Positions 3,813-22,074 of a stretch of 23,695 bases of DNA are shown here, one piece after another (position 1 is the stretch's first letter; every line of letters begins with the position of its first letter). Below the pieces are notes generated by a model. It ran no database searches. It had not been told where the DNA came from and was given only the letters and a program-made list of their open reading frames with translations. The translations under genes were made by a program, and so were the position numbers. Source of the stretch: a virus; IMG/VR virus record IMGVR_UViG_3300047480_000882, positions 1-23,695 of that record. One strand, given 5' to 3'.

Positions 3813-4538
3813 TTAGTTTGCTATCCTTGAATTAATAAAATTCTTATAAAGTTCTATTCTATCACCAAAAAAGTTTGTTGATATATCAGTTTCCATCTTG
3901 AGCATATCGTCGGAGCTGTTAGAATAAATGTTTCTATCCTCTATAGGATCTATATGCATTAAGGGCTGTATACCTCTTGCCATATAAGTATATGTCTGTT
4001 CCGTAATAAGATCGTCTACAGACATAGTTTGACCTTCGTCAACTATAGTAACTCCATATATCTTCATTTTAGCAGCTAAACCGTATTCATTAAAGAATGT
4101 TAAAACAATATCAAAAGGTGGCAGCATGTCAGCTAATGGGGCATAGTTTTTATTAGCTAGTGCGTTTTTGAATCTTTTAATTCTATAAAAAGCGTACTCA
4201 TTAAATACAGTAAAGATTAAAGAACCAGCTATTGTTCTAGAACCTTTCACGAATCCCCTAGGATTTACGTGCCCAAGAGTTCTAACTGGACTATTCTCTC
4301 TATGCACAGAGTATGAGATTGTTTGAATTTCACCAAGCTCAATAAAATCTCCAACATCGCTTGAAGTTTCGGTTCCCATTCTAGGTAAAACCATTGTGGC
4401 TTGAATGTCAACACCGGCAAAGGACATATTAGAGAATGGATCTGGGAGACCCTTTTCTCTTCTAATTGACTCAACCTGATTACCGTAGTCAACTATTTTT
4501 CTTTGTTCTATTTTAAGTTTTTCAATATCTTTGTACAT
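3813..4538 (-). CDS. Tail tube-family paralogue (second of three)
   Basis: A 241-residue protein clearly homologous to the 230-residue tube protein encoded just upstream. Residues 40-48 (F-A-G-V-D-I-Q-A-T) and 71-117, containing P-R-G-F-x-K-G-x-R-x-I-A-G-S-L-I-F-T-V-F, match the neighbour closely. So do residues 139-192, with P-P-F-D-I, I-Y-G-V and a Y-x-A-R-x-I segment. The N-terminal 30 residues are an added helical, charged extension, and residues 55-66 are a short insertion. A terminator hairpin sits between the two genes, ending about a dozen bases before this start codon, so this copy should be made at a lower level than the first. Codons are visibly more AT-rich than in the first copy. 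I read it as a minor tube-like protein, for example a tube-baseplate adaptor. Confidence 0.65.
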   Translation of the reverse strand: MYKDIEKLKIEQRKIVDYGNQVESIRREKGLPDPFSNMSFAGVDIQATMVLPRMGTETSSDVGDFIELGEIQTISYSVHRENSPVRTLGHVNPRGFVKGSRTIAGSLIFTVFNEYAFYRIKRFKNALANKNYAPLADMLPPFDIVLTFFNEYGLAAKMKIYGVTIVDEGQTMSVDDLITEQTYTYMARGIQPLMHIDPIEDRNIYSNSSDDMLKMETDISTNFFGDRIELYKNFINSRIAN

Positions 4539-4549
4539 TTTGCTCCGAT

Positions 4550-4595
4550 AAAAACTAAAGCGTGGAGGACAAACTAGTCATCCTCCACGCTTTAG
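4550..4595 (-). terminator. Rho-independent terminator after the main tube gene
   Basis: A perfect 15-bp stem (arms 4555-4569 and 4581-4595) with an 11-base loop is followed on the minus strand by a run of five Ts (4554-4550). It lies between the main tube gene and its first paralogue, ending 11 bases before the next ATG, so any transcript past it is read-through or starts elsewhere. Confidence 0.85.
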
Positions 4596-4618
4596 CTATT
4601 AAGACTTAACCTTAAGAA

Positions 4619-5311
4619 TTATGGTCTAATGATTTCTGAGTTTAGACCGCTTGAGGTTACTGCGTCCTTAGAAATGATGTCAGACAAGCTGCCACCGAAT
4701 CTGCTCAATTGTGAGTTAGAAATGGTGTACATAGGACCAATCTCACGAGCTACGTAGGTCATTGTCTCTTCAATAACGATGTCGTCCATTGAAGCGCCAG
4801 AACCTTCGTTTAGAAGCTCAACGCCGTAGATTGATCTTACTGCGCCTTGACCATACTCATTGACAAAAGTAATTGTAATGTCAAATGGTGGGATCTGGTC
4901 AGCGTAGTAAGGAACCTTGCTTACAACGTCTCTTGTTTGGTCGTCAAACTCAGCAATGCCTCTTCTGTGTGAAGGATCACCTGGAAGTGTGTTGCTTGAT
5001 CTTGTCCAAAATTTCATTTCCTGAGAAGTGCCATGATGTGTCTCTAGCATTGTGTAAAGAGCTGGGCGGTCAAAGACTGTGAAAATCAATGAACCAGCGA
5101 TACCTCTTTTACCTCTGGAGAATGACCTTGGGTTTGGTGAACCCATGGTGTAAATTGGGGCTTTTTCTCTTGTGACCGAGAAAGTAATACCTGAAAGTGC
5201 TCCAATCTCCTTACCGCCAAAGGTGGCAACAATATCTGCTCCGGAGAAAGTGGTGTATGTATTAAGGTATTTGTTAACCGGTGAATCGTAGTACTCGCCT
5301 GATGCTGGCAT
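4619..5311 (-). CDS. Major tail tube protein (first of three tube-family paralogues)
   Basis: A 230-residue protein directly after the tail sheath gene, the usual place of the tube gene in contractile-tailed phages. The beta-rich core includes residues 22-30 (F-S-G-A-D-I-V-A-T), 41-86 with R-G-K-R-G-I-A-G-S-L-I-F-T-V-F, and 141-193 with P-P-F-D-I-T-I-T-F and Y-V-A-R-E-I. It has a strong GGAGGG site and relatively GC-rich codons like the sheath and capsid genes, and it is closed by a strong terminator. All of these fit a protein needed in high copy. The two following genes are divergent copies. I assign it as the principal tube subunit from synteny, expression signals and codon usage; the fold itself is not proven from sequence alone. 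Confidence 0.7.
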   Translation of the reverse strand: MPASGEYYDSPVNKYLNTYTTFSGADIVATFGGKEIGALSGITFSVTREKAPIYTMGSPNPRSFSRGKRGIAGSLIFTVFDRPALYTMLETHHGTSQEMKFWTRSSNTLPGDPSHRRGIAEFDDQTRDVVSKVPYYADQIPPFDITITFVNEYGQGAVRSIYGVELLNEGSGASMDDIVIEETMTYVAREIGPMYTISNSQLSRFGGSLSDIISKDAVTSSGLNSEIIRP

Positions 5312-5342
5312 CTGTGTACCCTCCTATCTTATAGTGTTAATA

Positions 5343-6629
5343 TTAAAGGTTAACTGCTATTTGAACTTCAATTGACTTAAGTTCAAATGCTGGTGTTAGC
5401 ACTAGGTCAACAAGGGCCTTGTTCTCTGTTGGGATGTAACTTACTGTGAAGTCACTGTCGAGAAGGGCACCAAGCTGTTGCATGCCACGTAGACCCGAAG
5501 TAATAGCTGTTTCCATCGAGTTACGAACTTGCATTGTTGAAGGCTCACCAATAAACTTCTGGCAAACCTGGCGGACTACAAGCGAAGCCTCATTAATAAT
5601 TCTTGAGGTTGAAATTCTATTGTAATCTGAGGTTGCAGGAGCAAATGTCATGCCTTCTGCATATACTGGAATCTTATTAAAGTTAAGGACAATTGCATTT
5701 ACGCCTTTGTCGGTAACGCCAGTTGCTTGATCGTTTGAAAGCTGTGTTCTTGTTGGGTTGTAACGAAGTCTTGTTACGTTGAAGACAACCTTGTTAACTG
5801 GGCTTACATAAGAAGCCATTCTGCTGAGAGAAGCAGCAAATGTAGTTGCACCATTGGCATAACCAAAATCGCTGTAGTTTTCTGAGCTGTAGTTAACTGG
5901 CTTAACTTCTGCGGCAATGATAATAACGTATCTACCAATGCCACCCCATGTATAGGATGAACCGCTTGTGGCGTTCTTATCTGGCAAGCGGGTAAGTGTT
6001 AAGTGTGAAGATACGTTGGCTGGAGTCATTGTCTCTGCTGTTGCAGGGGTTGCTCCAGTTCCAATCCATGGTCTAATACCCATTACTGCAACACATGGGT
6101 TTGTATTTTCACTAATTGACTTGACCTTGTTTGCAACCTTGTATGCCCAGTTGTTTGCTACAGTAGTTGTATTGTCAGCATGGAAGCCATACTCGACGTC
6201 ATCGCTTGGTGTAGCTGGATCTTGCCAGTCAGATGTGACTCCGCCTCTGCCCCAAGGGACAATGATGTCTGGAAGTGCTACTTCAGCAGCAGCAAATGCG
6301 TCATCAAATACATCTGAACCACCAGAGGTTACTGTACCATTTGTGTGGTTAAAAGTTGTGTTGCTTGGAAGAGGAACCATGAAGATTCTATCTGCACCTG
6401 CAGCAACAAGTTCTTTATAAGACTTGTGTAACTGTGAGCCCTCACCAAAAGCGGTGATGACATCTGATTCTTTAGTGACTTGGACTACGTCTAAGTCAGC
6501 TACGTTGCCAGTGCCATCAGCAGTATTGCGCATGCCGATAACACAGATTCTTGGACCGACAGGAGAATCCTGTCTTGAGATGCTATAAAAGCGATCTTTT
6601 ACGATTGTTTTAACGCCAGGTAGAGCCAT
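5343..6629 (-). CDS. Tail sheath protein (main sheath)
   Basis: A 428-residue protein with the pattern of contractile tail sheath proteins. The N terminus (M-A-L-P-G-V-K-T) leads into a V-x-R-I-C-V-I-G strand. Then comes a region on loading a neighbouring coordinate (about residues 50-75, 'VTKESDVITAFGEGSQLHKSY'-like spacing) and a helix-strand unit with A-G-A-D-R-I-F-M-V-P-L near residue 80. The C-terminal third has the R-I-I-N-E-A-S-L-V-V-R-Q strand/helix typical of the domain that links sheath subunits. Length is in the normal range. Codons are GC-richer than most of the window, and it is followed 31 bases later by the tube gene. The sheath contracts around the tube to drive it through the host envelope. 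A second, more divergent sheath-like gene lies upstream. Confidence 0.85.
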   Translation of the reverse strand: MALPGVKTIVKDRFYSISRQDSPVGPRICVIGMRNTADGTGNVADLDVVQVTKESDVITAFGEGSQLHKSYKELVAAGADRIFMVPLPSNTTFNHTNGTVTSGGSDVFDDAFAAAEVALPDIIVPWGRGGVTSDWQDPATPSDDVEYGFHADNTTTVANNWAYKVANKVKSISENTNPCVAVMGIRPWIGTGATPATAETMTPANVSSHLTLTRLPDKNATSGSSYTWGGIGRYVIIIAAEVKPVNYSSENYSDFGYANGATTFAASLSRMASYVSPVNKVVFNVTRLRYNPTRTQLSNDQATGVTDKGVNAIVLNFNKIPVYAEGMTFAPATSDYNRISTSRIINEASLVVRQVCQKFIGEPSTMQVRNSMETAITSGLRGMQQLGALLDSDFTVSYIPTENKALVDLVLTPAFELKSIEVQIAVNL

Positions 6630-6676
6630 TGAATTTTAAACCTCCGGTTTGCAGTCTTTTGTAGGTCTAGTCTTAA

Positions 6677-6706
6677 TGTATAGTAACGAACAACCTATAA
6701 AAACAA
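6677..6706 (-). promoter_or_regulatory. Possible promoter before the tail sheath gene
   Basis: On the minus strand TTGTTT (6706-6701) and TATACA (6682-6677) are separated by 18 bases, a plausible -35/-10 pair, about 50 bases before the sheath ATG at 6629. The 77-base gap is the longest intergenic space between the neck and tail genes. No inverted repeat is seen in it. The sites are imperfect matches in AT-rich DNA, so this is tentative. Confidence 0.35.
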
Positions 6707-7447
6707 CTATGAACTAAGATTTGGAGTGGAACTTTGATATAGGTCTATAATACTTACCTCTGTTCCCTCAAAGTTAGGGGTTGCCATTTCTAATGGCTCT
6801 TTAACTAATTCTTTTTCGTAAGCCATATAGGTTCTTACGTCTATGGCTATTTTTTCTATGGTTCCAACCGAAGTAGCTATTAATTTTTCGGTGGTCAACA
6901 TATAGGTGACGGTTCTTTTAACTACGTCAGTACTACCTTTATTTTCTTCTGCATCAGCCAATCTTCTAGCATAAACAAACTCTGAAGCTCCTAATCTTTT
7001 AAAAACAGGAGTATACTCCAGCATAAAGTCTTCAAATATTTCCGCTAGAGAATCTGCGACTTCAGCTCCGTCATACCTAGATTCTGGAGTCCTAGTGGCT
7101 CCGCCCATCACCTTAGTGGTTATGGTAAAAGAGACTACATTTTGAAATCTCTGACCAAATACCATGACATCATTTTCAACAACATGTCTGCTTCTTGGCT
7201 TTGGCTCAACTGAGTGAGCTTTTCTTAACTCTAGGCCATAAACGATACAGGGGTAGACAGCGTACTGAGCTGGTTGAGTTGGAACAATTGGAATGTCTGG
7301 ATGTAGGTTTTCCCATAAAAGTTTAACAACAGAAACAAACTCTAAATAAGTTAAATTTCCTGCAGCCTGCAGTGGTGGACCAAATGTCCTGTTGTTAGCG
7401 ACTTCATTTAAAGCTGGAAGTGGAAAACCAAATGCGTTCTGTGCCAT
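6707..7447 (-). CDS. Tail terminator / tail completion protein
   Basis: A 246-residue protein between the second sheath-like gene and the main sheath gene. Residues about 98-185 show the alpha/beta pattern common in tail terminators of phages with contractile tails. A strand (V-V-S-F-T-I-T-T-K) leads to a long amphipathic helix (A-D-S-L-A-E-I-F-E-D-F-M), then F-K-R-L-G-A and a beta strand (R-T-V-T-Y-M-L-T-T-E-K). Tail terminators cap the finished tube and sheath and present the surface that joins the head. The first 60 residues and the last 60 are extra and unassigned. An AAGG lies about 10 bases before the ATG, which comes two bases after the stop of the upstream gene. Family is assigned from secondary-structure pattern and synteny. 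Confidence 0.6.
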   Translation of the reverse strand: MAQNAFGFPLPALNEVANNRTFGPPLQAAGNLTYLEFVSVVKLLWENLHPDIPIVPTQPAQYAVYPCIVYGLELRKAHSVEPKPRSRHVVENDVMVFGQRFQNVVSFTITTKVMGGATRTPESRYDGAEVADSLAEIFEDFMLEYTPVFKRLGASEFVYARRLADAEENKGSTDVVKRTVTYMLTTEKLIATSVGTIEKIAIDVRTYMAYEKELVKEPLEMATPNFEGTEVSIIDLYQSSTPNLSS

Positions 7448-7449
7448 TT

Positions 7450-9105
7450 TTAAGCTGCCTTACCTGATGATATGCTGAAGGATAATTTCTTTAACCCCAA
7501 CGAAGAAACGACACTGATGTCAAAATAAAGCTTCCCCTTTACTTCTTGATCACTATATGCTTCAAAAGTATAATCTGATATTATATTATTGGTTTTTAAA
7601 TATGACAGAAGACTTCTTACATCTTCTACTGCTTTTTGAGAAGAAAATTTACTTATATTATTATTAGATAAAGACTTTATCTCGTTTATAAGCATAGCGC
7701 AGAGTCTAATCTGTGGAAGTTTTCTATAGTTTGAGGTAGGATGAGCCATGGTATTATCATTGGTTAAATACACTTGATACATATTACCTCTTCTACTTCT
7801 AGCGTTTCTGGTAAAAGTATTGACCCCTATGTTATCTAATCTATCAACTTGAGATTGGTTTAAAGATATTCCGCTAAGCCCGAAAGCAGAAGGTACATTT
7901 TTTCTTATTAAACTCTGGTTTACTGGATTAGAAGATATCATTCCAGCAGCGGTTGCTGCAGCGGAAGAGATATATGTGATATTCAAAAAGTTATGATTAA
8001 TTATTAATTCTCCATAAACTGGAACTATGAATCTGCCCATATCTCCTATTATTTGATTCTGAGAATCAAACATTGTATATCGATTAGTAAATATATTTTT
8101 ATTTTCAAGTGCAGCTATATCAGCTTCCGATATTCCACCAGTTCTACTGCCAATAACACCTATCTGAATCATTCCGCTCTTATTGTGAAAGTCTTGACAA
8201 TACATGGCTAATTGAGTAGTAAAATCTATAGATCCTGTATTCAGGATACTTGTCTCTAGTGGAACTATTATATCTAAATAATCATAATCTTTTATAATTT
8301 CATAAGTTTCTTCTAGCCTAGACCAGTATCTTTGATAGAAGTTATAATTAATAGGAGTTGCATCGCCCATAGAGTAAAATGGTATTGCAGTATTTCTTTG
8401 GCCTAAGTCTTCAATGTACTCAGTCATTGGAGCGGCTGCACAAATATATATATCTCTAGCACCTGCTGCGTATGCATCAAATACACCTCTTAGTAAGGGT
8501 GAATTAACATTTGCCTTAAGAAGATCTACCGCTTCTTGAATAGAGCTTATTCTAATAATATTATTTAAAGCAATTCCGTCAGCATGGCCTATCAAGAGTA
8601 TAGAGTTAGTCTTGTATTGTTCAAGGGTTTCATAAGCTGGAACAAATGATTGAATAATTTCTCTTTGACCGGATGCATATGAAGAAGACAGCGCAGCGCT
8701 AGTTTGCGGTACTTGAAAGTGCGCTATATATTGTATTATTTTAGCTCCAGAATAAGTTGTAGCTACAACTGAATAGTTACCAGGAAACAAGCTATTAGAA
8801 ACTGTATAATAAAAAGAAAACTTTGTTGTATTTAGATTAGAAACATTTTGCCCTGGCAAATCTCCAAAATTGCCATGATATATAGTGTTGTTTGTAGTTT
8901 TCTCAATATAGTTACCACTAGGTGTGGCGTCTTGAAATAAGTAAGAATAAGGACCATCTATAATAGTTCCCGACCCTGCGTCACCTCTATATACCGATAC
9001 TAAGACATCAGAAGGAGTTGCTCCTGCTGTTGGATCGTAAAAAGTATTATTTTCGTTAAAAATAAATTCAAAAGTACCAGTTTGGCCTGGAGATAACACT
9101 ATCAT
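7450..9105 (-). CDS. Second tail-sheath-like protein with N-terminal Ig-like domain
   Basis: A 551-residue protein. I place the start at the ATG at 9105, which shares one base with the preceding stop (TGATG) and has an AAAGG site, rather than the in-frame TTG one codon earlier. Residues about 1-135 are beta-rich and resemble an Ig-like fold, ending in P-G-N-Y-S-V-V-A-T-T-Y. From about residue 150 it follows the sheath pattern: N-S-I-L-L-I-G-H-A, a helix leading to a strand A-A-G-A-R-D-I-Y-I-C-A-A-A, then D-I-I-V-P-L. Near the C terminus it has a domain with R-L-C-A-M-L-I-N-E-I. It lies in the neck module, before the terminator, well away from the main sheath gene, and is AT-rich. A sheath-like neck or tail-completion protein is the best guess. 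Confidence 0.6.
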   Translation of the reverse strand: MIVLSPGQTGTFEFIFNENNTFYDPTAGATPSDVLVSVYRGDAGSGTIIDGPYSYLFQDATPSGNYIEKTTNNTIYHGNFGDLPGQNVSNLNTTKFSFYYTVSNSLFPGNYSVVATTYSGAKIIQYIAHFQVPQTSAALSSSYASGQREIIQSFVPAYETLEQYKTNSILLIGHADGIALNNIIRISSIQEAVDLLKANVNSPLLRGVFDAYAAGARDIYICAAAPMTEYIEDLGQRNTAIPFYSMGDATPINYNFYQRYWSRLEETYEIIKDYDYLDIIVPLETSILNTGSIDFTTQLAMYCQDFHNKSGMIQIGVIGSRTGGISEADIAALENKNIFTNRYTMFDSQNQIIGDMGRFIVPVYGELIINHNFLNITYISSAAATAAGMISSNPVNQSLIRKNVPSAFGLSGISLNQSQVDRLDNIGVNTFTRNARSRRGNMYQVYLTNDNTMAHPTSNYRKLPQIRLCAMLINEIKSLSNNNISKFSSQKAVEDVRSLLSYLKTNNIISDYTFEAYSDQEVKGKLYFDISVVSSLGLKKLSFSISSGKAA

Positions 9106-9482
9106 CAACTTGGCCTTTCTCTGGTAGCTCCAACTGTCCAGTATACTATTTTGCCCATTCTACCCCTTACTGGGGCGGCAAAGTCGATCAGATAAACATT
9201 TGGATCATTAATATTAGAAGGAGACTCTTCGTATATCCTGTCTCCTTGCTTTGGGTTGACTTCTGATTCAAAATAAAAAATTAAATCAACATTAGTAACA
9301 AAACCTTCATTGTCTTCTTTTTGTGCTTGAGCAAGAACTTCAGCGGAGGGAAAAAAATGTCTTGTTGTTATTCTTTCAAAATTTGTGGAATATAGAAAAT
9401 CATCAGATACTCTTCTTTGCAAGAGGACATCATGACCATATTCTCTAAGGATTTTTCTAAAAGCTTTTTTTGGATCAATCAT
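9105..9482 (-). CDS. Head closure (head-tail stopper) protein
   Basis: A 125-residue protein, taking the ATG at 9482, which overlaps the end of the adaptor gene by eight bases. The frame extends upstream to 9548, but that would overlap the adaptor by 74 bases and no better ribosome site is present. Residues about 60-120 are beta-rich, with a strand D-L-I-F-Y-F, then a G-D-R-I-Y-E turn, Y-L-I-D-F and a final strand. This is the small-barrel pattern of head-completion stoppers, which close the connector after DNA packaging. Position between the adaptor and tail terminator genes supports it. Confidence 0.6.
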   Translation of the reverse strand: MIDPKKAFRKILREYGHDVLLQRRVSDDFLYSTNFERITTRHFFPSAEVLAQAQKEDNEGFVTNVDLIFYFESEVNPKQGDRIYEESPSNINDPNVYLIDFAAPVRGRMGKIVYWTVGATRERPS

Positions 9483-12024: not shown

Positions 12025-12822
12025 CTAATCCCCTCTTCTAAAGAGCTTTTTTTTAGAATTGCTTTTTAGCTCAGCGTCAACCTTGATTCTCTCTCTTCTA
12101 TACGGAGCACCGGTCCCGTCTGCTGGAGAAAGATTGCCGCTACCCATACCTGAAGAAGATACATACTTAAAGTAATCCTCATCATTAAAAAGAACTTCTG
12201 TAAAATCTGAATCTCTTTTAAATGGTATAAGTTGAGCTACTGGTGTTCCAAATCTTATAGTAAAAGGTTTATCGCCAATTGGATTTATAACAACATTCAT
12301 TTGATGATAAAAATCAGTATGCACTATTGCTGGCAGAACCGTGTAATCTTCATTGGGCTCCCAATGCATTGGGAGCATTAAGGTTGACCACCCTGGTGCT
12401 GTCTCTATTCTCCAAGGGTTAATAATTTTTGGATATTGGCCCGTCTCAATTTTTCTAACTGACGTCATAGGGCATTCTCCAGTAGAATTATATTTAAAAC
12501 CAGTAACTAGACCAATAGATACTTCTCTTCCACCTATCATAGCCGATGGAAAAAAATCATCTGCCCCTGTTTCCCATGTGCCATTGATATCTGGCCTAAA
12601 ACGATAATTAGTCCACATAGGCAATGTTGCACCCGCACTAAGAAAGTCTATAGTACCGGCGCATCTTCTTAAAGAGCCGCCTTCTTTTCTAATTCTCTTA
12701 AACCAAGAAGGTTGATTTGTAAGAGTATTTATATATGGAGCGGACTCCATAAGCCTATTATCCATAGGGGTAAATCGAATTTGACCTGGTTTTAATTTTT
12801 CTTTTTTAGGTTTAGGGCTCAC
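12025..12822 (-). CDS. Halogenase-linked protein of unknown function (DUF6065-like)
   Basis: A 265-residue protein starting at GTG in a GTGA overlap with the halogenase stop, so the two are translationally coupled. The first 12 and last 25 residues are Lys/Arg-rich. The middle is a beta-rich domain with A-P-G-W-S-T-L-M-L-P (about residues 142-151), then I-V-H-T-D-F, then F-G-T-P-V-A-Q-L-I-P-F near residue 200. This order (PGWS, a [ED]TD[WF] strand, a G-x-P-x-A-Q-L strand) recalls the DUF6065 family from memory; I could not check it. The last strand also resembles the dCTP deaminase/dUTPase barrel, but their catalytic motifs are absent. Tight coupling makes it a likely partner of the halogenase, for example a substrate-binding or recruiting protein. 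Confidence 0.55.
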   Translation of the reverse strand: MSPKPKKEKLKPGQIRFTPMDNRLMESAPYINTLTNQPSWFKRIRKEGGSLRRCAGTIDFLSAGATLPMWTNYRFRPDINGTWETGADDFFPSAMIGGREVSIGLVTGFKYNSTGECPMTSVRKIETGQYPKIINPWRIETAPGWSTLMLPMHWEPNEDYTVLPAIVHTDFYHQMNVVINPIGDKPFTIRFGTPVAQLIPFKRDSDFTEVLFNDEDYFKYVSSSGMGSGNLSPADGTGAPYRRERIKVDAELKSNSKKKLFRRGD

Positions 12823-14333
12823 TGTTTATTCCATTCTTGATCTAAATTGTAAAGTTCTCTTAGCGACTGAGCGTGGTCAATAAGTTCATGATTACTTCTA
12901 CCTTTATAGAATTCATCTAATTGTTTATCTACTTCTCTTCTAATTCCAAAATGGTTAATAGCCATTGTACATGCTTCTACATTTATAATCCCTTGACCTT
13001 GACCTACATGGGTCATATGAGGGGCTAAGAACATTTCCCCGTGAGAATGATCAAAGTCATTTCTTGACGGAGGTCTTTCTGACCATAAATCAATGATATC
13101 TTGAAGCTCTTTGTTTATTGGCATGTTTGCCATTTCTTGCCAGAACTTACTATCTCTTCTATCACTATAATAATGCAATCTAATCATAGTTAGTATGTTT
13201 TTCATAACTTTTTCAAAAGACTGATTAAAGTGTTTTTGTGAAAATTTATGACTTGGCATATAAGAGGAAATATATGGTATTGCTTGACGAATCTGCTGTA
13301 TCGTTGAACCAATACTAGTAGCCTCTAGTGGCTCAACAAAAGAAGAGGCTAATCCAACTGCAATAACATTTTTTTGCCAAGGTTCTTTTACATATCCGGC
13401 ATCAAACTTAATTACTCTAGGATCTTTAGGAAGCTTATACCCGCTTATTTTTTCTGCTTCTTCTACTGCTTGCTCAACAGAAATAAACTGATCACAGAAA
13501 ACATATCCATTGCCTCTTCTTTCTTGAGTTGGTATCTCCCACATCCAGCCAGAAGAAGCTGCTTTTGCTCTTGTGTATCCATGAATCTTTCCGCTTGGGT
13601 CAGATTCTGTAGGAAATGGAATAGCAGTATTGCATAATAGATAATCACTAAAAGACTGCCAATTTACATCGCCAACTTCTTTCAATAAGACTCTACTAAA
13701 ACCTGATGCATCAAACCAAAAGTCGGCTTCTATCTCATCACCCTGTTTTGTTTGAACAGATTTTATAGTTCCATCTTCATTTTTCTGAACTTTTTGAACA
13801 AGGCCGTCAATAAATCTAACATTCCTATTAAATGCTAAAGAAACAAAATATTCATTTAACTTAAAAGTATCAAAATGATATTGATTTGTATTATTGTGTA
13901 GATTTTCTCTTCTAATCTTATCTCTTACTAAGCCTATTGAAGATGTTTGAGATGTTAATGTTTTACCCGTTTCTATAATTCCCATATATGCTCCGAATAA
14001 ACCAAAGCAGTATATATCATCTATACCTGAAACGCTGTGGAAATAATCTGGAGTATGCTCTGTCCAGTTTTCATATCTAATTCCATATTTATGCGTAGCT
14101 GCGGTTTCCATTAACATTTCGTGAAGAGGTATATCGCATAACTCCATAAACTGACGCCAATGTTCGGTTGACCCTTCTCCTACACCTATAATACCAATGT
14201 CAGAAGAAGAAACAACGGTAATTCCACATGATGGAAAAGCTCTTCTTAAAAGAAGGGCGGTTATCAACCCCGCTGTACCAGATCCTATTATGCCAAAAGT
14301 TCTTGGCTTAAATTTATTCAAATTATCGTCCAT
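12819..14333 (-). CDS. Flavin-dependent tryptophan-halogenase family enzyme
   Basis: A 504-residue protein of normal family length (about 500-540). These enzymes use FADH2, O2 and halide to form hypohalous acid, which a lysine carries to an electron-rich aromatic substrate. Motifs: G-S-G-T-A-G FAD-binding turn at 17-22, G-V-G-E-G-S-T at 50-56, K82 in T-H-K-Y-G-I-R-Y corresponding to the PrnA active-site lysine, W-M-W-E-I-P (263-268) matching the diagnostic WxWxIP, and F-V-E-P-L-E-A-T-S at 332-340 with E337 corresponding to the catalytic glutamate. It therefore looks active. A halogenase of this family from cyanophage Syn10 (VirX1) is known to iodinate aromatic substrates in vitro. No flavin reductase is encoded here, so FADH2 must come from the host or elsewhere in the genome. 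Substrate and halide cannot be read from the sequence. Confidence 0.92.
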   Translation of the reverse strand: MDDNLNKFKPRTFGIIGSGTAGLITALLLRRAFPSCGITVVSSSDIGIIGVGEGSTEHWRQFMELCDIPLHEMLMETAATHKYGIRYENWTEHTPDYFHSVSGIDDIYCFGLFGAYMGIIETGKTLTSQTSSIGLVRDKIRRENLHNNTNQYHFDTFKLNEYFVSLAFNRNVRFIDGLVQKVQKNEDGTIKSVQTKQGDEIEADFWFDASGFSRVLLKEVGDVNWQSFSDYLLCNTAIPFPTESDPSGKIHGYTRAKAASSGWMWEIPTQERRGNGYVFCDQFISVEQAVEEAEKISGYKLPKDPRVIKFDAGYVKEPWQKNVIAVGLASSFVEPLEATSIGSTIQQIRQAIPYISSYMPSHKFSQKHFNQSFEKVMKNILTMIRLHYYSDRRDSKFWQEMANMPINKELQDIIDLWSERPPSRNDFDHSHGEMFLAPHMTHVGQGQGIINVEACTMAINHFGIRREVDKQLDEFYKGRSNHELIDHAQSLRELYNLDQEWNKQ

Positions 14334-14339
14334 ATATAT

Positions 14340-14348
14340 ATTATATCA
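14340..14348 (-). promoter_or_regulatory. Extended -10-like element immediately before the halogenase start
   Basis: TGATATAAT, identical to the element at 2759-2767, ends six bases before the halogenase ATG, in the 15-base gap after the oxygenase stop. If it works, the transcript would be nearly leaderless, which fits the absence of a Shine-Dalgarno sequence there. It has no -35 box and overlaps AT-rich DNA, so it may be chance. Confidence 0.3.
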
Positions 14349-14930
14349 CTATTCATACCATGTTACTAGGCTATATTTGACGCCTGAATTAACCGGATGG
14401 GCTATGTGTAGATAGGGAAAATTAGAAGGAAAAAGTATTACTGTTCCAGTTTCCATTGGTATAGACAAGTCAAAAAATGGAAACTCTAAATCTCCACCAT
14501 CTTTTGGGGCAAGGATGCAAGACACCATGCTGAACACTCTTCTATTGTCAGGAGCGTGATCTACGTGTGCGTGATACTCTGCCTCGGGATAATACTTTAG
14601 CAGCTGGTAAGCTGCGTGCATTCCAGAAGGAATTAAATATTCTGTTCTATAATCATAGGTAGCTTTTTCCACTGGGATTAAAATGTTTTCGGTAAAATAT
14701 TTAGATAATTCTGTTTCTGGATAGGGTTTCATTATTGGAATTAATGAACAAGTTAAAGATGTTCTATATTTAGAGGAAATACCATCGCCAATTCTTGAAG
14801 AACTCCAGTGTAGTTCAGACCAATCAGAAGCAGTTTCTTTTTCTAAACTTTGTATAAAATCCTCTGCTTGATTTTTTGAAAAAACATCCCTATAAATAGA
14901 GATACACTTTGCTGGACTTTCTACTTTCAT
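14349..14930 (-). CDS. 2-oxoglutarate/Fe(II)-dependent oxygenase (prolyl-4-hydroxylase type)
   Basis: A 193-residue single-domain oxygenase. It shows the facial triad as H122-x-D124 (H-V-D) and distal H178 (H-I-A-H-P-V). Seven residues after H178 is K185, in the G-V-K-Y-S-L-V-T-W block, where these enzymes carry the Arg or Lys that binds the 2-oxoglutarate carboxylate; Lys is the choice of prolyl-4-hydroxylases. A G-G-D-L-E-F strand at 145-150 and T-G-T-V-I-L-F-P-S at 161-169 complete the double-stranded beta-helix. It starts in an ATGA overlap with the upstream gene and is followed after 15 bases by the halogenase. The enzyme couples O2 and 2-oxoglutarate to hydroxylation, often of protein side chains. 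Substrate is unknown; a structural protein of the virion is one candidate. Confidence 0.88.
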   Translation of the reverse strand: MKVESPAKCISIYRDVFSKNQAEDFIQSLEKETASDWSELHWSSSRIGDGISSKYRTSLTCSLIPIMKPYPETELSKYFTENILIPVEKATYDYRTEYLIPSGMHAAYQLLKYYPEAEYHAHVDHAPDNRRVFSMVSCILAPKDGGDLEFPFFDLSIPMETGTVILFPSNFPYLHIAHPVNSGVKYSLVTWYE

Positions 14931-15325
14931 ACTACCTCAAATCTACCTTCATGCAACATGGTATCGTTGTTCCAAATTTCATAATTATACTTATTCTTTT
15001 TAAATATCCTAAAACGAAATCTTAGTATATGCTTTTCTTTTATTGTTGGAAAAAATTTATACTCATCATCAGAACTTTTACAAACAATAAATACATTTTT
15101 TGAAAAATTATTATACTCATCAGTAACGTCTAACCAATATATATATCCACTTTCAACAAAATCAGGAGACTCAATAGCAAAAGTTTCAGGAACAGAACCT
15201 ATAGATATATGGGTATATTCTTCGGAAATACTTATTGGAAGCTGAGATTCTTCAGATAATTTTTTAGCTTCTTCTGGCATTCCCTGTTCTGTTAAAGACT
15301 GTGGAACGCAAACAAACCTTTTCAT
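14927..15325 (-). CDS. Unknown beta-rich protein upstream of the oxygenase
   Basis: A 132-residue protein overlapping both neighbours by four bases (ATGA at each end), so it is translationally locked into the operon. The first 35 residues are polar and partly helical. The rest alternates strands such as Y-I-Y-W-L-D-V, N-V-F-I-V-C and L-R-F-R-F-R-I-F, and suggests a small beta-sandwich or barrel. No transmembrane segment or catalytic motif is seen. It may be a substrate-binding partner for the oxygenase or a small structural protein; I do not recognise a family. Confidence 0.75.
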   Translation of the reverse strand: MKRFVCVPQSLTEQGMPEEAKKLSEESQLPISISEEYTHISIGSVPETFAIESPDFVESGYIYWLDVTDEYNNFSKNVFIVCKSSDDEYKFFPTIKEKHILRFRFRIFKKNKYNYEIWNNDTMLHEGRFEVV

Positions 15326-15552
15326 TGTAGACTTGCTATTTTACTCTCAATCATTGCTAAACCTGATATCAAACTTTCAATTCTTTCTCTTTCTCCAACC
15401 ATAACTGGGTTAAACCCAGAAAGATCAGTCTCATCAAAAGTGTCAGGATCAACGCCTACCCTAATTAATATATTAAAAATTTCTGATTTAATATTTTTTC
15501 TTGTAGCAGTTAACGTATCTATTTTTTGTTGTGGTGTTAGTTCAAAATCCAT
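15322..15552 (-). CDS. Small helical protein, first gene of the tailoring operon
   Basis: A 76-residue protein. The frame is open further upstream, but the ATG at 15552 has an excellent AAAGGAG site and begins after the stop of the fibre gene, so I choose it. The sequence is helical throughout with a G-V-D-P-D-T-F turn near the middle. It is a paralogue of the 83-residue protein at 11771-12022, sharing the turn, an E-R-I segment and the I-E-S-K-I-x-x-L end. The pair brackets the oxygenase, halogenase and DUF6065-like genes. Function unknown. Confidence 0.75.
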   Translation of the reverse strand: MDFELTPQQKIDTLTATRKNIKSEIFNILIRVGVDPDTFDETDLSGFNPVMVGERERIESLISGLAMIESKIASLQ

Positions 15553-15568
15553 TTTATTTTTCTCCTTT

Positions 15569-17137
15569 TTAGATATTGTATAGTATATACGATGAACCAG
15601 AAGAGGCAGAAAAATTATCCGAATCTGCCGTAAGACCTGCCCTAGTATCAAAAGAAACTGTATTTGATATTGTATCACAAACTACGACAATTGCGCCTCC
15701 GCCTCCAGCTCCTCCTCTTTTTCCTGTTCCACCTGTTATAGCTGGAGCTCCTCTACCGTGAGAACCATCATTAACTCCTCCAGCTCCACCAGCATAGTGT
15801 GCTGATGCATCAGGATTGGGATGCGAAACAGAGTGGTTATGATGATGATACCTAGGAGAACTGCTAGTGTAAGAACCAGCATGGGTGTGGGTGTGTGGCG
15901 GTTCGCCAAAGTGTGCATGAACGTGTCCATCGTGACCACCAAAAGAGCCATGATAGATTCTTTCATGGTGGTGAGCATTACCGTCTGGCTGATACCAGTT
16001 ATGATGTCCATTTGGCTTTTGATGTCCATGTGGTGGATAATGAGCCCAGTTTCCGTATCCATCATAGTGAGGCCTCCAAGCATGCCAATAGTGCCCGTCC
16101 CAGTGGTGGACTCCACCATGAGGGCCATCATTATGGGGATGGTGATAATGACCACCATGATGCCAGTGTGGCCCTTCCCAGTGACTAGTTGAACCCTTGA
16201 AGTGGAGAGATTCATGTGGCGCAACCTTGTGCCCATGACGGTCTGAGTGATTTGTCGTATGATTATGGTGGTCATGATTTCTTGTATGAGGTGCATGACT
16301 ATGACCAGGAGCTACATGATGGTGGTCCGTACGACTTGGTGCTGCGGCACCATCTGCTCCGTTGGCACCTGCGGGAATTGTAGTTCCTACTGATCCAGCT
16401 GCTCCAGATCTACCTAATGAAAATACTTTTCCAGATCCAACTATTGTTTTTGCAAAGATAGCAACTACGCCACCTCCTGCTCCACCAGAACCTCCTGCTC
16501 CACCTGGAGCTGGACCAGAGTTGGCGGAACCATCTGCTGCTGGATTACCTCTTCCGCCTGGAGCATTAACAGTATGGGAACTTGGTCCATATCCACCAAG
16601 AGCTCCTGCTATACCTGCTTTATTTGGCCATGTAGCTGGCGCAGGAGTTGTTGTTCCTGTTGTGCCAGTTGTGCCAGAAGATCCACCAGTAATTTTTACT
16701 CCACCAGTGTTTGTCGGATCAATATAACTTCCACCTAAAAGGTTATTTAAACTCTTGTACAGATAGCTTGGCAAGGTTGATACATTTGGATTAGAACCAC
16801 CACCACCTTGTCCTCCAAGTCTATAAGAAATAGTAGATGTGGCTTGTCCTGCAATTGAACCATCGGAAATGTTTGATCCAGATTCGCCAACTATACCAGA
16901 AGTAACAGAACCTATCCCGATAAATCCATTAAGAGTTAAAGTGTTTTTTACAAAAACTTTAAACCCATTAGTATAAATAATTCCAGTTAATGTAACCTCT
17001 AAATTGTCATAATACATGTCGCTAGTTAGCGTTACTGCAGAGTTAACGTATCCATTTCCATCTAAACCTGAACCATAAATGGAATCATTTCCAACTCTTT
17101 GTGTTCTTTGCTGACCGATTCTGTCCATTGCTGGCAT
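15569..17137 (-). CDS. Glycine-rich fibre/adhesin-like protein with a large histidine-rich insert
   Basis: A 522-residue protein. I start it at the ATG at 17137, one base after the upstream stop (TAA-A-ATG), because M-P-A-M-D-R matches the start of its paralogue (M-A-A-M-V-R); a 17-residue extension to 17188 would overlap the gene before. Regions: residues 1-90, beta-rich, with I-Y-G-S-G-L-D-G and a V-K-N-T-L-T-L-N strand; 90-270, Gly/Ala/Thr/Pro-rich with G-G-x-G-G blocks; about 269-447, a His-rich insert with roughly fifty His, seven Trp and ten Tyr; then G-G-A-G-G-G-G-A-I-V-V-V and a C-terminal beta domain to the end. Glycine-rich repeats occur in phage adhesins such as T2-type gp38, and HxH motifs bind iron in the T4 gp37 tip. 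I infer a host-binding appendage protein. The oxygenase/halogenase operon follows 16 bases later. Confidence 0.75.
   Translation of the reverse strand: MPAMDRIGQQRTQRVGNDSIYGSGLDGNGYVNSAVTLTSDMYYDNLEVTLTGIIYTNGFKVFVKNTLTLNGFIGIGSVTSGIVGESGSNISDGSIAGQATSTISYRLGGQGGGGSNPNVSTLPSYLYKSLNNLLGGSYIDPTNTGGVKITGGSSGTTGTTGTTTPAPATWPNKAGIAGALGGYGPSSHTVNAPGGRGNPAADGSANSGPAPGGAGGSGGAGGGVVAIFAKTIVGSGKVFSLGRSGAAGSVGTTIPAGANGADGAAAPSRTDHHHVAPGHSHAPHTRNHDHHNHTTNHSDRHGHKVAPHESLHFKGSTSHWEGPHWHHGGHYHHPHNDGPHGGVHHWDGHYWHAWRPHYDGYGNWAHYPPHGHQKPNGHHNWYQPDGNAHHHERIYHGSFGGHDGHVHAHFGEPPHTHTHAGSYTSSSPRYHHHNHSVSHPNPDASAHYAGGAGGVNDGSHGRGAPAITGGTGKRGGAGGGGAIVVVCDTISNTVSFDTRAGLTADSDNFSASSGSSYILYNI
15797..16333 (-). other. 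Histidine/aromatic-rich insert within the glycine-rich fibre gene
   Basis: This DNA encodes about 180 residues with close to fifty histidines, often as HxH, HH or HHH, mixed with Gly, Pro, Trp, Tyr, Asp and Asn and almost no aliphatic residues. The paralogous gene just upstream lacks it: there the G-G-G-V-V-I-I strand is followed within about 30 residues by the final G-G-G-V-I-I-A-V segment. It therefore looks like a domain inserted into, or lost from, an ancestral glycine-rich protein. Such composition suggests metal binding or an adhesive, low-complexity segment. Confidence 0.8.
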
Positions 17138-17138
17138 T

Positions 17139-17544
17139 TTATACCAACTGCATGTAGTAGACTGTGCCTGAATTTTGCCCCGTAACATCTGTAGAAATTG
17201 ATGCCGGAAGTGCTGAATGAGAGGATACCGCTATAATCACTCCTCCACCAGCAGGTGCAGTTCCTGGAGCTTGAATATATGCCGTACCAGAACTTGGACC
17301 AGTTATATACCTTGCAGCTATAATAACTACTCCACCACCTGCTTGACCAGAGCCACCTGCACCACCTCTTAGAAATGTTGGAGTTGTACTAGAGGCACTT
17401 ACCGCCCATCCTCTTATGGCCTGATGAGGAATTTGGTAATACTTTGAACCACCCAATGCAGCTGCTGGTGCAGTTGCAGAATAACCAGTTGCAGAACCAC
17501 CAAGACTATGAGTTACAGCAGTTGCTGCAGCCCCTCCGCTGTGC
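17139..17544 (-). pseudogene. C-terminal part of a frameshifted glycine-rich fibre protein
   Basis: This frame continues the protein whose N-terminal part is at 17506-17850 after a one-base shift. It has no good start of its own: the first candidate is a TTG at 17456 without a ribosome site, and the frame is open back to about 17540. Read through, it gives a G-G-A-A-A-T-A-V-T-H-S-L-G-G segment matching the intact paralogue's region after G-S-I-A. It then has G-G-A-G-G-S-G-Q-A-G-G-G-V-V-I-I and a C-terminal beta domain ending at 17139. Conserved protein sequence on both sides argues for a recent event, a programmed frameshift, or a sequencing or assembly error. Confidence 0.65.
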
Positions 17545-17850
17545 TATTGATCCAGCAGTTGAATAACCAGTTGTAAAACCTATAATTGAGTTATTGTTTA
17601 GGGTTAAAATATTTTTAACAAATATTCTATACCCATTTGGAGCTAATCTAACTCCAGCGTTAATAGTTAAATTATTAAAAAAAAGATCTGTTGTCATTGA
17701 GTAAACATTAGAAGATGGAGCCATTCCTAAAATAGTTGTTGACCCATCTAATGTAGCGTCTCCATCCACTCCAGTTCCAAATATTGGATCAGGCGCATCA
17801 ATAAAAGATGCCATTGCGCTAGGAGCGCCATACCTAACCATTGCTGCCAT
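17506..17850 (-). CDS. N-terminal part of a frameshifted glycine-rich fibre protein
   Basis: The ATG at 17850 starts a 114-residue frame. Residues 1-93 are a clear paralogue of the start of the 522-residue fibre protein: M-A-A-M-V-R, D-P-I-F-G-T-G-V-D-G, a D-L-F-F-N-N-L-T-I strand and V-K-N-I-L-T-L-N. After G-S-I-A the frame turns into an unrelated Cys/Arg-rich tail (Q-R-R-G-C-S-N-C-C-N-S) and stops at 17506, while the homologous continuation is in the +1 frame. The shift lies around 17531-17544, beside a GGGG run on the coding strand. Repaired, the gene would run 17850-17139 and encode about 236 residues, the insert-free version of the next gene. Confidence 0.65.
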   Translation of the reverse strand: MAAMVRYGAPSAMASFIDAPDPIFGTGVDGDATLDGSTTILGMAPSSNVYSMTTDLFFNNLTINAGVRLAPNGYRIFVKNILTLNNNSIIGFTTGYSTAGSIAQRRGCSNCCNS

Positions 17851-21018: not shown

Positions 21019-22074
21019 TTAGAGTTCGTTTGTAACCTGAACCTCGTAGTTACGGCTGAGCTTGATGTTCTTAGCGACGGTAATACCTTCGCCATCGCCC
21101 AGCATTACGATGTCGTAACGCTCCTTCATCTTCATCTGACGAATGTCACGTGATGGATCATCAAACTGGTCAGTGGACAGATCGTCCTTGACTAGAAGTG
21201 AGCCAACCTCGTTACGGTCAATGAGGAAAAGGTCAGACTTAGCTGCACTGCCACTTGTCTTAGCTGTAAAGCTGACGAATGGTGATACAAGTACGTTAAG
21301 ACCCATTGGAGCAGTTGCGTTTAATGCGCCTTCTGGAGACTGTGGACGGTAACCCCAGCTAGTACCTACAGCTGAAGCTGCGCCACCTGCATGGAAGATG
21401 CTGTCCTTCAAGAAGACTGACCACATGAGTGGATGGAGGATGAAGTCTGTTGGTACATGCTTCTCTGCCATCAAAACTGCAGCCATGTCTACGATGTCGT
21501 CCCAGGTGACGGTGTCATTAAAGGCACCATTGATGTCACGGCCGGTTGTTGAATCGTAGGCATTGTCGTCGTTATCAAAGACGATTGTTGCAGCGTCCTT
21601 GAAACGGCTAAGTGCAATTTGCTCTTTTAAGCGAGCAAGGGCACGACCTGCAGCGCGGACATGAAGGCCGACGATATCCCAAAGTGAGTCAGCAATAACT
21701 TCCTCTGTGAAAGCTAGCTTGACACCCTTCTTGGACACCTTTCCTTCAATTTGCTTTGCAAAGGCTAATGCCTGCTCTGGGTACTCTTGTCCTTCGGGAA
21801 TCTCAGCTGCTTGAATTGCATTAACTGCTGGGAATTCAAGTGAACGACCCTTACCGAGACGTACAGTTGAAAGTAGGGGAGTAACTAGAAGCTGGGGTTC
21901 AGCTGCTTCCTTAAGAGTACGAGAAATAACCTTTGGGAAGAGAATTGCAGCATCTGGTGATGCAAAAGCTTCCTTAATGGTAACTCTGTTGTCTTGGTCT
22001 AGATACCCGTCCTCAGATAATGCGGCTTCCCAAGCTGGGAGTCCTGAGAGGAGCTCTTGGATTGTTTTACTCAT
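21019..22074 (-). CDS. Major capsid protein (HK97 fold)
   Basis: A 351-residue protein with the layout of HK97-fold capsid proteins. The N-terminal arm spans about 1-60. An E-loop-like region around R-S-L-E-F-P-A-V-N to Y-P-E-Q-A-L-A-F follows, then a long spine-helix region rich in A-L-A-R-L-K-E-Q. An A-domain stretch holds D-D-I-V-D-M-A-A-V-L and T-D-F-I-L-H-P-L-M-W. A late strand D-L-F-L-I-D-R leads to I-R-Q-M-K-M-K-E-R-Y-D-I-V-M, a classic feature. Position after scaffold and decoration genes, a strong AGGAGGA site, GC-richer codons and a strong terminator all fit the most abundant virion protein. No protease cleavage site is assigned. Confidence 0.93.
   Translation of the reverse strand: MSKTIQELLSGLPAWEAALSEDGYLDQDNRVTIKEAFASPDAAILFPKVISRTLKEAAEPQLLVTPLLSTVRLGKGRSLEFPAVNAIQAAEIPEGQEYPEQALAFAKQIEGKVSKKGVKLAFTEEVIADSLWDIVGLHVRAAGRALARLKEQIALSRFKDAATIVFDNDDNAYDSTTGRDINGAFNDTVTWDDIVDMAAVLMAEKHVPTDFILHPLMWSVFLKDSIFHAGGAASAVGTSWGYRPQSPEGALNATAPMGLNVLVSPFVSFTAKTSGSAAKSDLFLIDRNEVGSLLVKDDLSTDQFDDPSRDIRQMKMKERYDIVMLGDGEGITVAKNIKLSRNYEVQVTNEL

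Follow-up and report, generated by a model that had tools for sequence, protein, structure and literature searches.

The stretch of viral DNA considered here, referred to as the window, comprises positions 1-23,695 of IMG/VR record IMGVR_UViG_3300047480_000882. Within the window lies a gene cassette in which an open reading frame (ORF) encoding a Gly-rich, fibre-like protein with a His-rich insert is followed by ORFs encoding a 2-oxoglutarate (2OG)-Fe(II) oxygenase and a flavin-dependent halogenase. Matches to tail sheath and major head proteins were also found in the window, with the genes giving those matches and the whole of the cassette being located on the minus strand. In the order of transcription, the cassette consists of a split fibre paralogue, the fibre with its insert, p82, a 132-residue ORF (p132), the oxygenase, the halogenase and a 265-residue protein. 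Relative loci fetched for comparison are designated by L-numbers. The features of the cassette are as follows:

17139..17850 (17850-17506 and 17456-17139), minus strand: Gly-rich fibre paralogue without the His insert, in two frames, as defined by comparison with relatives
15569..17188, minus strand: Gly-rich fibre-like protein of 539 residues, with homologues in IMG/VR contigs and a structural model
15794..16318 (approximate), minus strand: His-rich fibre insert, residues 291-465, containing 49 His, 10 Tyr and 7 Trp and under purifying selection
15322..15552, minus strand: p82, a small cassette ORF, the first ATG of which lies 16 bases past the fibre stop codon
14927..15325, minus strand: p132, a 132-residue cassette ORF with relatives in many, not all, cassettes
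14349..14930, minus strand: 2OG-Fe(II) oxygenase (PF13640, E 1.1e-9; phrog_61, E 2.6e-24)
12819..14333, minus strand: flavin-dependent halogenase (PF04820, E 1.7e-101), with solved relatives and a 58-row alignment
12025..12822, minus strand: 265-residue protein (phrog_7084) with a predicted trimeric-dUTPase fold, as addressed by PHROGs, a structure model, Foldseek and VIA

Behind the fibre gene, adjacent cassette genes overlap by 4 bases or sit 15-16 bases apart. The initial annotation had placed the two enzymes in a tight operon beginning 16 bases past the fibre gene. A gene does start at this point, namely p82, such that the spacing was correctly described but the enzymes are not the first genes to follow the fibre. 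An alternative internal ATG of the fibre ORF, at position 17137, corresponds to the end coordinate given in that annotation. No Pfam or PHROGs family was matched by either p82 or p132.

Recounting of the fibre insert yielded 49 His, 7 Trp, 10 Tyr and 21 Gly over 175 residues, in agreement with the counts of His, Trp and Tyr given in the initial annotation. When the insert was compared with those of L002, L003 and L004, nonsynonymous divergence (dN) was 0.148, 0.101 and 0.091, respectively, with the corresponding synonymous values (dS) being saturated, 1.849 and 2.165. Because dN is low relative to dS in these comparisons, the insert is a genuine coding region under purifying selection. In the structural model of the fibre, the Gly-rich body was confidently predicted, with block means of 83-95 for the predicted local distance difference test (pLDDT) score at residues ~171-290 and 461-520. 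By contrast, pLDDT fell below 50 across most of residues 291-459, i.e., the insert, which is predicted to be unstructured. Weak matches of the model to collagen-like giant-virus proteins probably reflect the Gly-rich body. In T-even-like phages, gp38 is a polyglycine-type adhesin in which a Gly-rich body carries loops or inserts, encoded near the tail module. The fibre considered here shares the Gly-rich body and the location near the tail module with such adhesins, although no solved structure was matched at E <0.001 when the model was compared with the PDB using Foldseek. A search of a collection of named phage isolates with the fibre as query gave no match. Its assignment as a putative virion fibre or adhesin thus derives from composition and tail-region position, in lieu of a fold match.

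The halogenase gave a whole-protein match to PF04820 (340.8 bits, as compared to a cut-off of 21) and matched 30 distinct sequences of solved structure, including PrnA, RebH, Thal and VirX1 by name, as well as 2wet and 5uao, which we take to be PyrH and MibH, respectively. Residues G17, G19, G22, K82, W263, P268, E334 and E337 were kept in all 58 aligned rows, with W265 and I267 being kept in 54 and 57 rows, respectively. As such, the flavin adenine dinucleotide-binding and catalytic motifs GxGxxG, K82, GWxWxIP and VEPLE are intact in the window and conserved among relatives, in line with the earlier description of the enzyme as an intact-looking flavin halogenase. K82, the GWxWxIP motif, E334 and E337 presumably serve the roles assigned to such features in flavin halogenases, which include a catalytic Lys and a catalytic Glu. 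The GxGxxG motif and a Lys (K79) are named as features of a phage halogenase in an excerpt from PMC8407142.

The assignment of the second enzyme as an Fe(II)/2OG oxygenase was likewise upheld, with the PF13640 match lying above the cut-off, residues H122, D124 and H175 being invariant across all 99 aligned rows and K185 being found in 97 of them. The HxD...H residues presumably form the iron triad, with K185 presumably being the basic residue that binds 2OG. Among sequences of solved structure, the nearest were prolyl 4-hydroxylases, this match being weak (E 0.03). 2OG enzymes are known to hydroxylate proteins. As judged from their sequences, both cassette enzymes look functional.

The distribution of the fibre and halogenase genes was considered using loci retrieved with the halogenase (the best 80 of 120 loci) and with three fibre-side queries, namely the fibre N-terminal domain (the best 80 of 486), the paralogue (80 of 246) and a divergent fibre group (80 of 408). 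The L124 fibre, when used as query, returned only itself. As one contig may be fetched repeatedly, distinct fibres were also counted. In most loci found with the halogenase, the order paralogue-fibre-(p82)-(p132)-oxygenase-(extra genes)-halogenase-265-residue protein recurs, with the flanking genes differing. Only seven of these 80 loci were without a scored fibre ORF, namely L064 and six in which the halogenase starts no more than 1.9 kb from the edge.

When the fibre and paralogue queries were considered, a halogenase was present in 135 of 136 instances (57 of 58 distinct fibres) in which at least 3 kb downstream and at least 8.6 kb upstream were available. With no condition placed on the flanks, a halogenase was found on the same stretch for 190 of 207 complete fibre ORFs; of the other 17, 12 are followed by less than 1.7 kb, three are copies of L124, and the last two are L305 and L314. 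Upon clustering at 90% identity without preferring halogenase-bearing representatives, 66 of 72 fibre clusters included a halogenase. Three of the remaining six clusters end less than 1.6 kb past the fibre, while the others are L124, L087, wrongly taken as halogenase-free since a cut halogenase is present, and L305, which is genuinely without the gene. The contigs of L141, L215 and L159 contain no halogenase, but only 0.5-1.5 kb follows the fibre in each. L124, with three His and no halogenase in a 35-kb contig, was considered as a supporting exception and dropped, given that just 541 bases of this contig precede the fibre and that a halogenase is located ~7 kb upstream in the near relative L091.

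Pooling with the halogenase-found loci, with halogenase-bearing representatives now being preferred in clustering, yielded 95 non-redundant fibres, 89 of which have a halogenase. The halogenase lies no more than 3 kb downstream of the fibre in 79 of these 89 and ~7 kb upstream in the other ten, with an oxygenase of the window's family found no more than 3 kb downstream in 74. All 89 fibres contain a His-dense stretch, defined as at least five His within 40 residues. The comparison proposed in the initial annotation, i.e., whether the halogenase co-occurs with His-rich fibres, hence revealed both on nearly every stretch long enough to tell. In a halogenase tree, the fibre-linked enzymes (59 rows) form one supported group apart from those of P-SSM2, S-SCSM2R and HTVC008M, with HTVC008M and one faecal record being on long branches of unsure placement. 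Linkage to the fibre holds for halogenases sharing as little as ~37% identity with that of the window.

As a control, 80 loci were drawn from at least 580 candidates using a 296-residue tail-associated protein encoded upstream, a query blind to both the fibre and the halogenase; a tail sheath query gave seven loci, too few to serve this purpose. Both genes were present in six control loci and neither in 73, with the fibre appearing alone in one and the halogenase alone in none (Fisher p = 2e-8, a value calling for caution, since related contigs are not independent). In the single fibre-alone locus, L368, the stretch ends ~1.5 kb past the fibre, and the same contig holds a halogenase in L028. 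The 73 loci with neither gene include 43 of at least 10 kb and only 19 of at least 15 kb. Since the control protein is itself encoded in this tail region, the comparison addresses the link within such phages, rather than over all viruses.

Given the linkage, sequence conservation, intact motifs and selection described above, we consider it reasonably probable, if far from certain, that these genes comprise a mobile cassette, the enzymes of which modify the fibre after translation. The phage would produce a Gly-rich fibre or adhesin, the body of which carries a His-dense insert predicted to be unstructured. The fibre polypeptide would then be modified by the 2OG-Fe(II) hydroxylase and the flavin halogenase encoded close by, most likely within the insert and no later than the assembly of the virion. 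Hydroxyl groups may be introduced on Pro, Asn or His, and halogen on His or Tyr, as well as on Trp where present; the modified side chains may change how the fibre binds metal, is cross-linked or adheres to the host. We infer the fibre to be a virion protein and the substrate, and infer likewise the chemistry, the residues affected, which halogen is used and any advantage to the phage. The original proposal that the enzymes tailor the insert thus draws partial support from the fibre-halogenase linkage and from the lack of a lone halogenase in the control set. Trp, however, is not constant, and the pairing of His insert and halogenase is not strict, as L064, L320, L321, L305 and L314 reveal. 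Literature searches, judged at the level of listings, found nothing naming a fibre as a halogenase substrate. Halogenase genes of phages are commonly assigned to metabolism, with little indication of what they are for; tight linkage to one structural fibre provides a concrete candidate substrate that can be tested. If the proposal is true, halogenation would join the ways in which viruses may modify their own particles, and the cassettes would supply many naturally occurring candidate protein halogenases, together with their paired substrates, that could serve in the chemical tagging of proteins.

Several observations argue against modification of the fibre insert. Linkage alone is compatible with co-inheritance. 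In L064, as well as in L320 and L321, found among the 40 loci returned by the L064 halogenase, a Gly-rich fibre without a His insert is followed by a halogenase and by a gene that, by eye, is oxygenase-like, and these halogenases are nested within the fibre-linked group of the tree. According to the initial annotation, many relatives with a halogenase but no aromatic/His-rich fibre would speak against its proposal; these three loci are of that type, but the comparison as a whole mostly favours the proposal. In turn, L305 and L314 have kept the fibre, oxygenases and genes like that of the 265-residue protein in the absence of a halogenase, with no PF04820 match being found in the 32.8-kb L305 contig. 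The L305 fibre contains 11 His and 32 Tyr, and eight of these His fall within 40 residues, sufficient for a His-dense stretch. For this reason, L305 was dropped as a His-poor control, and His density alone is no predictor of the halogenase. Moreover, insert length and His content differ widely among fibres, and L128 and its copies encode the halogenase on the strand opposite to that of the fibre. Finally, the halogenases of P-SSM2, Syn1, S-SCSM2R and HTVC008M have 2OG-type genes in the vicinity and no fibre of this kind adjacent; that of pelagiphage HTVC008M sits between terminase genes and adjoins a dioxygenase gene.

These other phages bear on the possibility that the cassette enzymes make or alter a small host molecule, as part of auxiliary or secondary metabolism, and merely ride in the tail-fibre region. 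Indeed, the P-SSM2, Syn1 and S-SCSM2R halogenases are found among metabolic and hypothetical genes, and VirX1, a cyanophage enzyme that has been characterized, halogenates numerous small aromatic compounds in vitro (excerpt from PMC8407142). A cyanophage cluster with a halogenase and 2OG enzymes was, moreover, read as serving secondary metabolism or capsule decoration (excerpt from PMC7824862). Like that of the window, the cyanophage halogenases (VirX1 of Syn10, that of P-SSM2 and relatives) are of the PF04820 type, and 2OG-type genes lie nearby in those records that were viewed. By contrast, identity to the window's halogenase is no more than 39% in the 40 records listed out of 70 matching ones and less than 60% in all 70, and the cyanophage enzymes included in the tree, namely those of P-SSM2 and S-SCSM2R but not VirX1, branch apart from the fibre-linked group. 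In the cassettes, furthermore, the halogenase is nearly always on a stretch with a single type of fibre and is absent from the 73 fibre-free control loci (19 of at least 15 kb), while no scaffold or carrier gene was named for any of the cassette proteins that were scanned against Pfam and PHROGs. A role in small-molecule metabolism is, as such, unlikely.

The enzymes could instead target another virion protein of the cassette, such as the Gly-rich paralogue without the His insert, p82 or p132. The paralogue adjoins the fibre in most cassettes and shows invariant Tyr across nine aligned members, while L064, L320 and L321, although without the His insert, still have a Gly-rich fibre just upstream of the enzymes. 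Yet p82 and p132 are missing or unrecognized in several cassettes, L305 and L314 have the paralogue but no halogenase, and a His-dense stretch has been maintained in all 89 halogenase-linked fibres despite variable sequence. We thus regard these other virion proteins as quite improbable targets.

Least probable, and only a slim prospect, is that the fibre and the enzymes travel together solely as a host-range block that is swapped as a unit, with the insert being a metal-binding part of an adhesin that needs no modification. His-rich metal-binding tips occur in other phage fibres, the block is found among varied flanking genes, and the enzymes without the insert in L064, L320 and L321, together with the His-dense fibre without a halogenase in L305 and L314, would fit such an arrangement. 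However, unconnected genes should separate more than is seen here, with linkage extending to halogenases of ~37% identity and no lone halogenase appearing in the control.

Assuming that the enzymes do modify the fibre insert, the identity of the target residue was considered. As automatically assigned insert boundaries were poor in a few fibres, recounts relied on the region following an AK-type motif (with six of the 95 fibres left out) and on the His-dense stretches. Trp is absent from 40 of the 89 His-dense stretches, Tyr is absent from two, and both are absent from two (L094 and L096). Trp, presented earlier as part of the insert's character, is therefore not a constant feature and was ruled out as a general target. 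The 173-residue stretch of L094 contains 50 His yet neither of these two aromatics, and the motifs of the adjoining halogenase are intact. With neither Trp nor Tyr there, His would be the only strongly electron-rich aromatic in that stretch, if the insert is indeed the target. Judging from these sequences, His would be the commonest candidate target. At the same time, the fibres of some groups (L154, L091, L152, L096 and L158) contain little His.

A more specific version of this proposal holds that the halogenase is a protein-histidine halogenase that, together with the 2OG hydroxylase, makes halogenated and hydroxylated imidazoles on the His insert, for building or metallating an adhesive fibre. 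This version is conceivable but doubtful, its odds being lowered by the halogenase-free L305 fibre, which also has a short His-dense stretch. Flavin halogenases are not known to act on peptidyl His, which weighs against the broader proposal too. As a precedent, 5-bromohistidine has been reported from sponge skeleton (excerpt from PMC8659048).

In terms of known systems, ChlH, MibH and SrpI halogenate ribosomal peptides (excerpts from PMC12518702 and PMC10286304), with ChlH also halogenating an internal residue of a 1054-residue protein (excerpt from PMC12518702). As in the cassette, each of these halogenases of ribosomally synthesized and post-translationally modified peptides (RiPPs) is a flavin enzyme encoded beside a ribosomally made polypeptide, on which the RiPP enzymes act post-translationally. 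The RiPP systems, however, use a short precursor peptide as substrate, rather than a 539-residue structural-type protein such as the candidate here, and the RiPP enzymes target Trp, the residue absent from many of the His-dense stretches (40 of 89). The jaw proteins of Nereis, raised as a parallel in the initial annotation, offer only an analogy. Nvjp-1 and Nai11527 are zinc-linked structural proteins of halogen-bearing jaws and, like the fibre, are rich in Gly and His. Unlike the fibre, they belong to an animal jaw matrix, and no halogenating enzyme is named in the excerpt from PMC13120676 that describes them.

As for the genes that accompany the fibre and the enzymes, the model of the 265-residue protein (pLDDT 93.8) matched dUTPases in Foldseek (E 8.4e-5), and VIA gave Z-scores of ~11 for the first rows, aligned over ~106-138 residues. 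The protein is, as such, predicted to adopt a trimeric-dUTPase fold, and its resemblance to dUTPase sequence motifs, as judged by eye, is loose. This dUTPase-fold protein usually appears alongside the halogenase in the fibre cassette.

The paralogue is a single frame of about 230-280 residues in most relatives seen, such as L017 (236 residues). In the window, the frame changes after ~110 codons, and the first part has a length of 114 residues both here and in the close relatives L002-L004. The split may represent gene decay or programmed frameshifting, and close to the site there is a G-rich stretch resembling a Shine-Dalgarno sequence. A search of the phage collection with the paralogue gave only one weak, partial match, while two partial matches were obtained in bacterial genomes, both on metagenome-assembled contigs.

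Variations on the cassette were also seen. Extra genes are found between those of the oxygenase and the halogenase in L020 (7253-7960), L046 (7240-7986) and L051 (6857-7993). Such extra cassette genes encode a 231-248-residue protein, methyltransferase-like by eye, and a 366-387-residue protein, with no good match being obtained for either in Pfam or PHROGs. The halogenase-free version of the cassette, seen in L305 (8962-18254) and L314, includes a Tyr-rich fibre, several oxygenase-like genes, two genes like that of the 265-residue protein and a small ferredoxin-like protein (by eye). In L089 (2-14600), on a contig shared with L075, there are tandem cassettes whose two halogenases differ from each other; both of their fibre ORFs bear His, and the first is truncated by the edge of the fetched stretch. 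Finally, elsewhere in the window, positions 3813-9108 and 21019-22074 contain two tail-sheath-like and three major-head-protein-like genes, all in one short virus contig.

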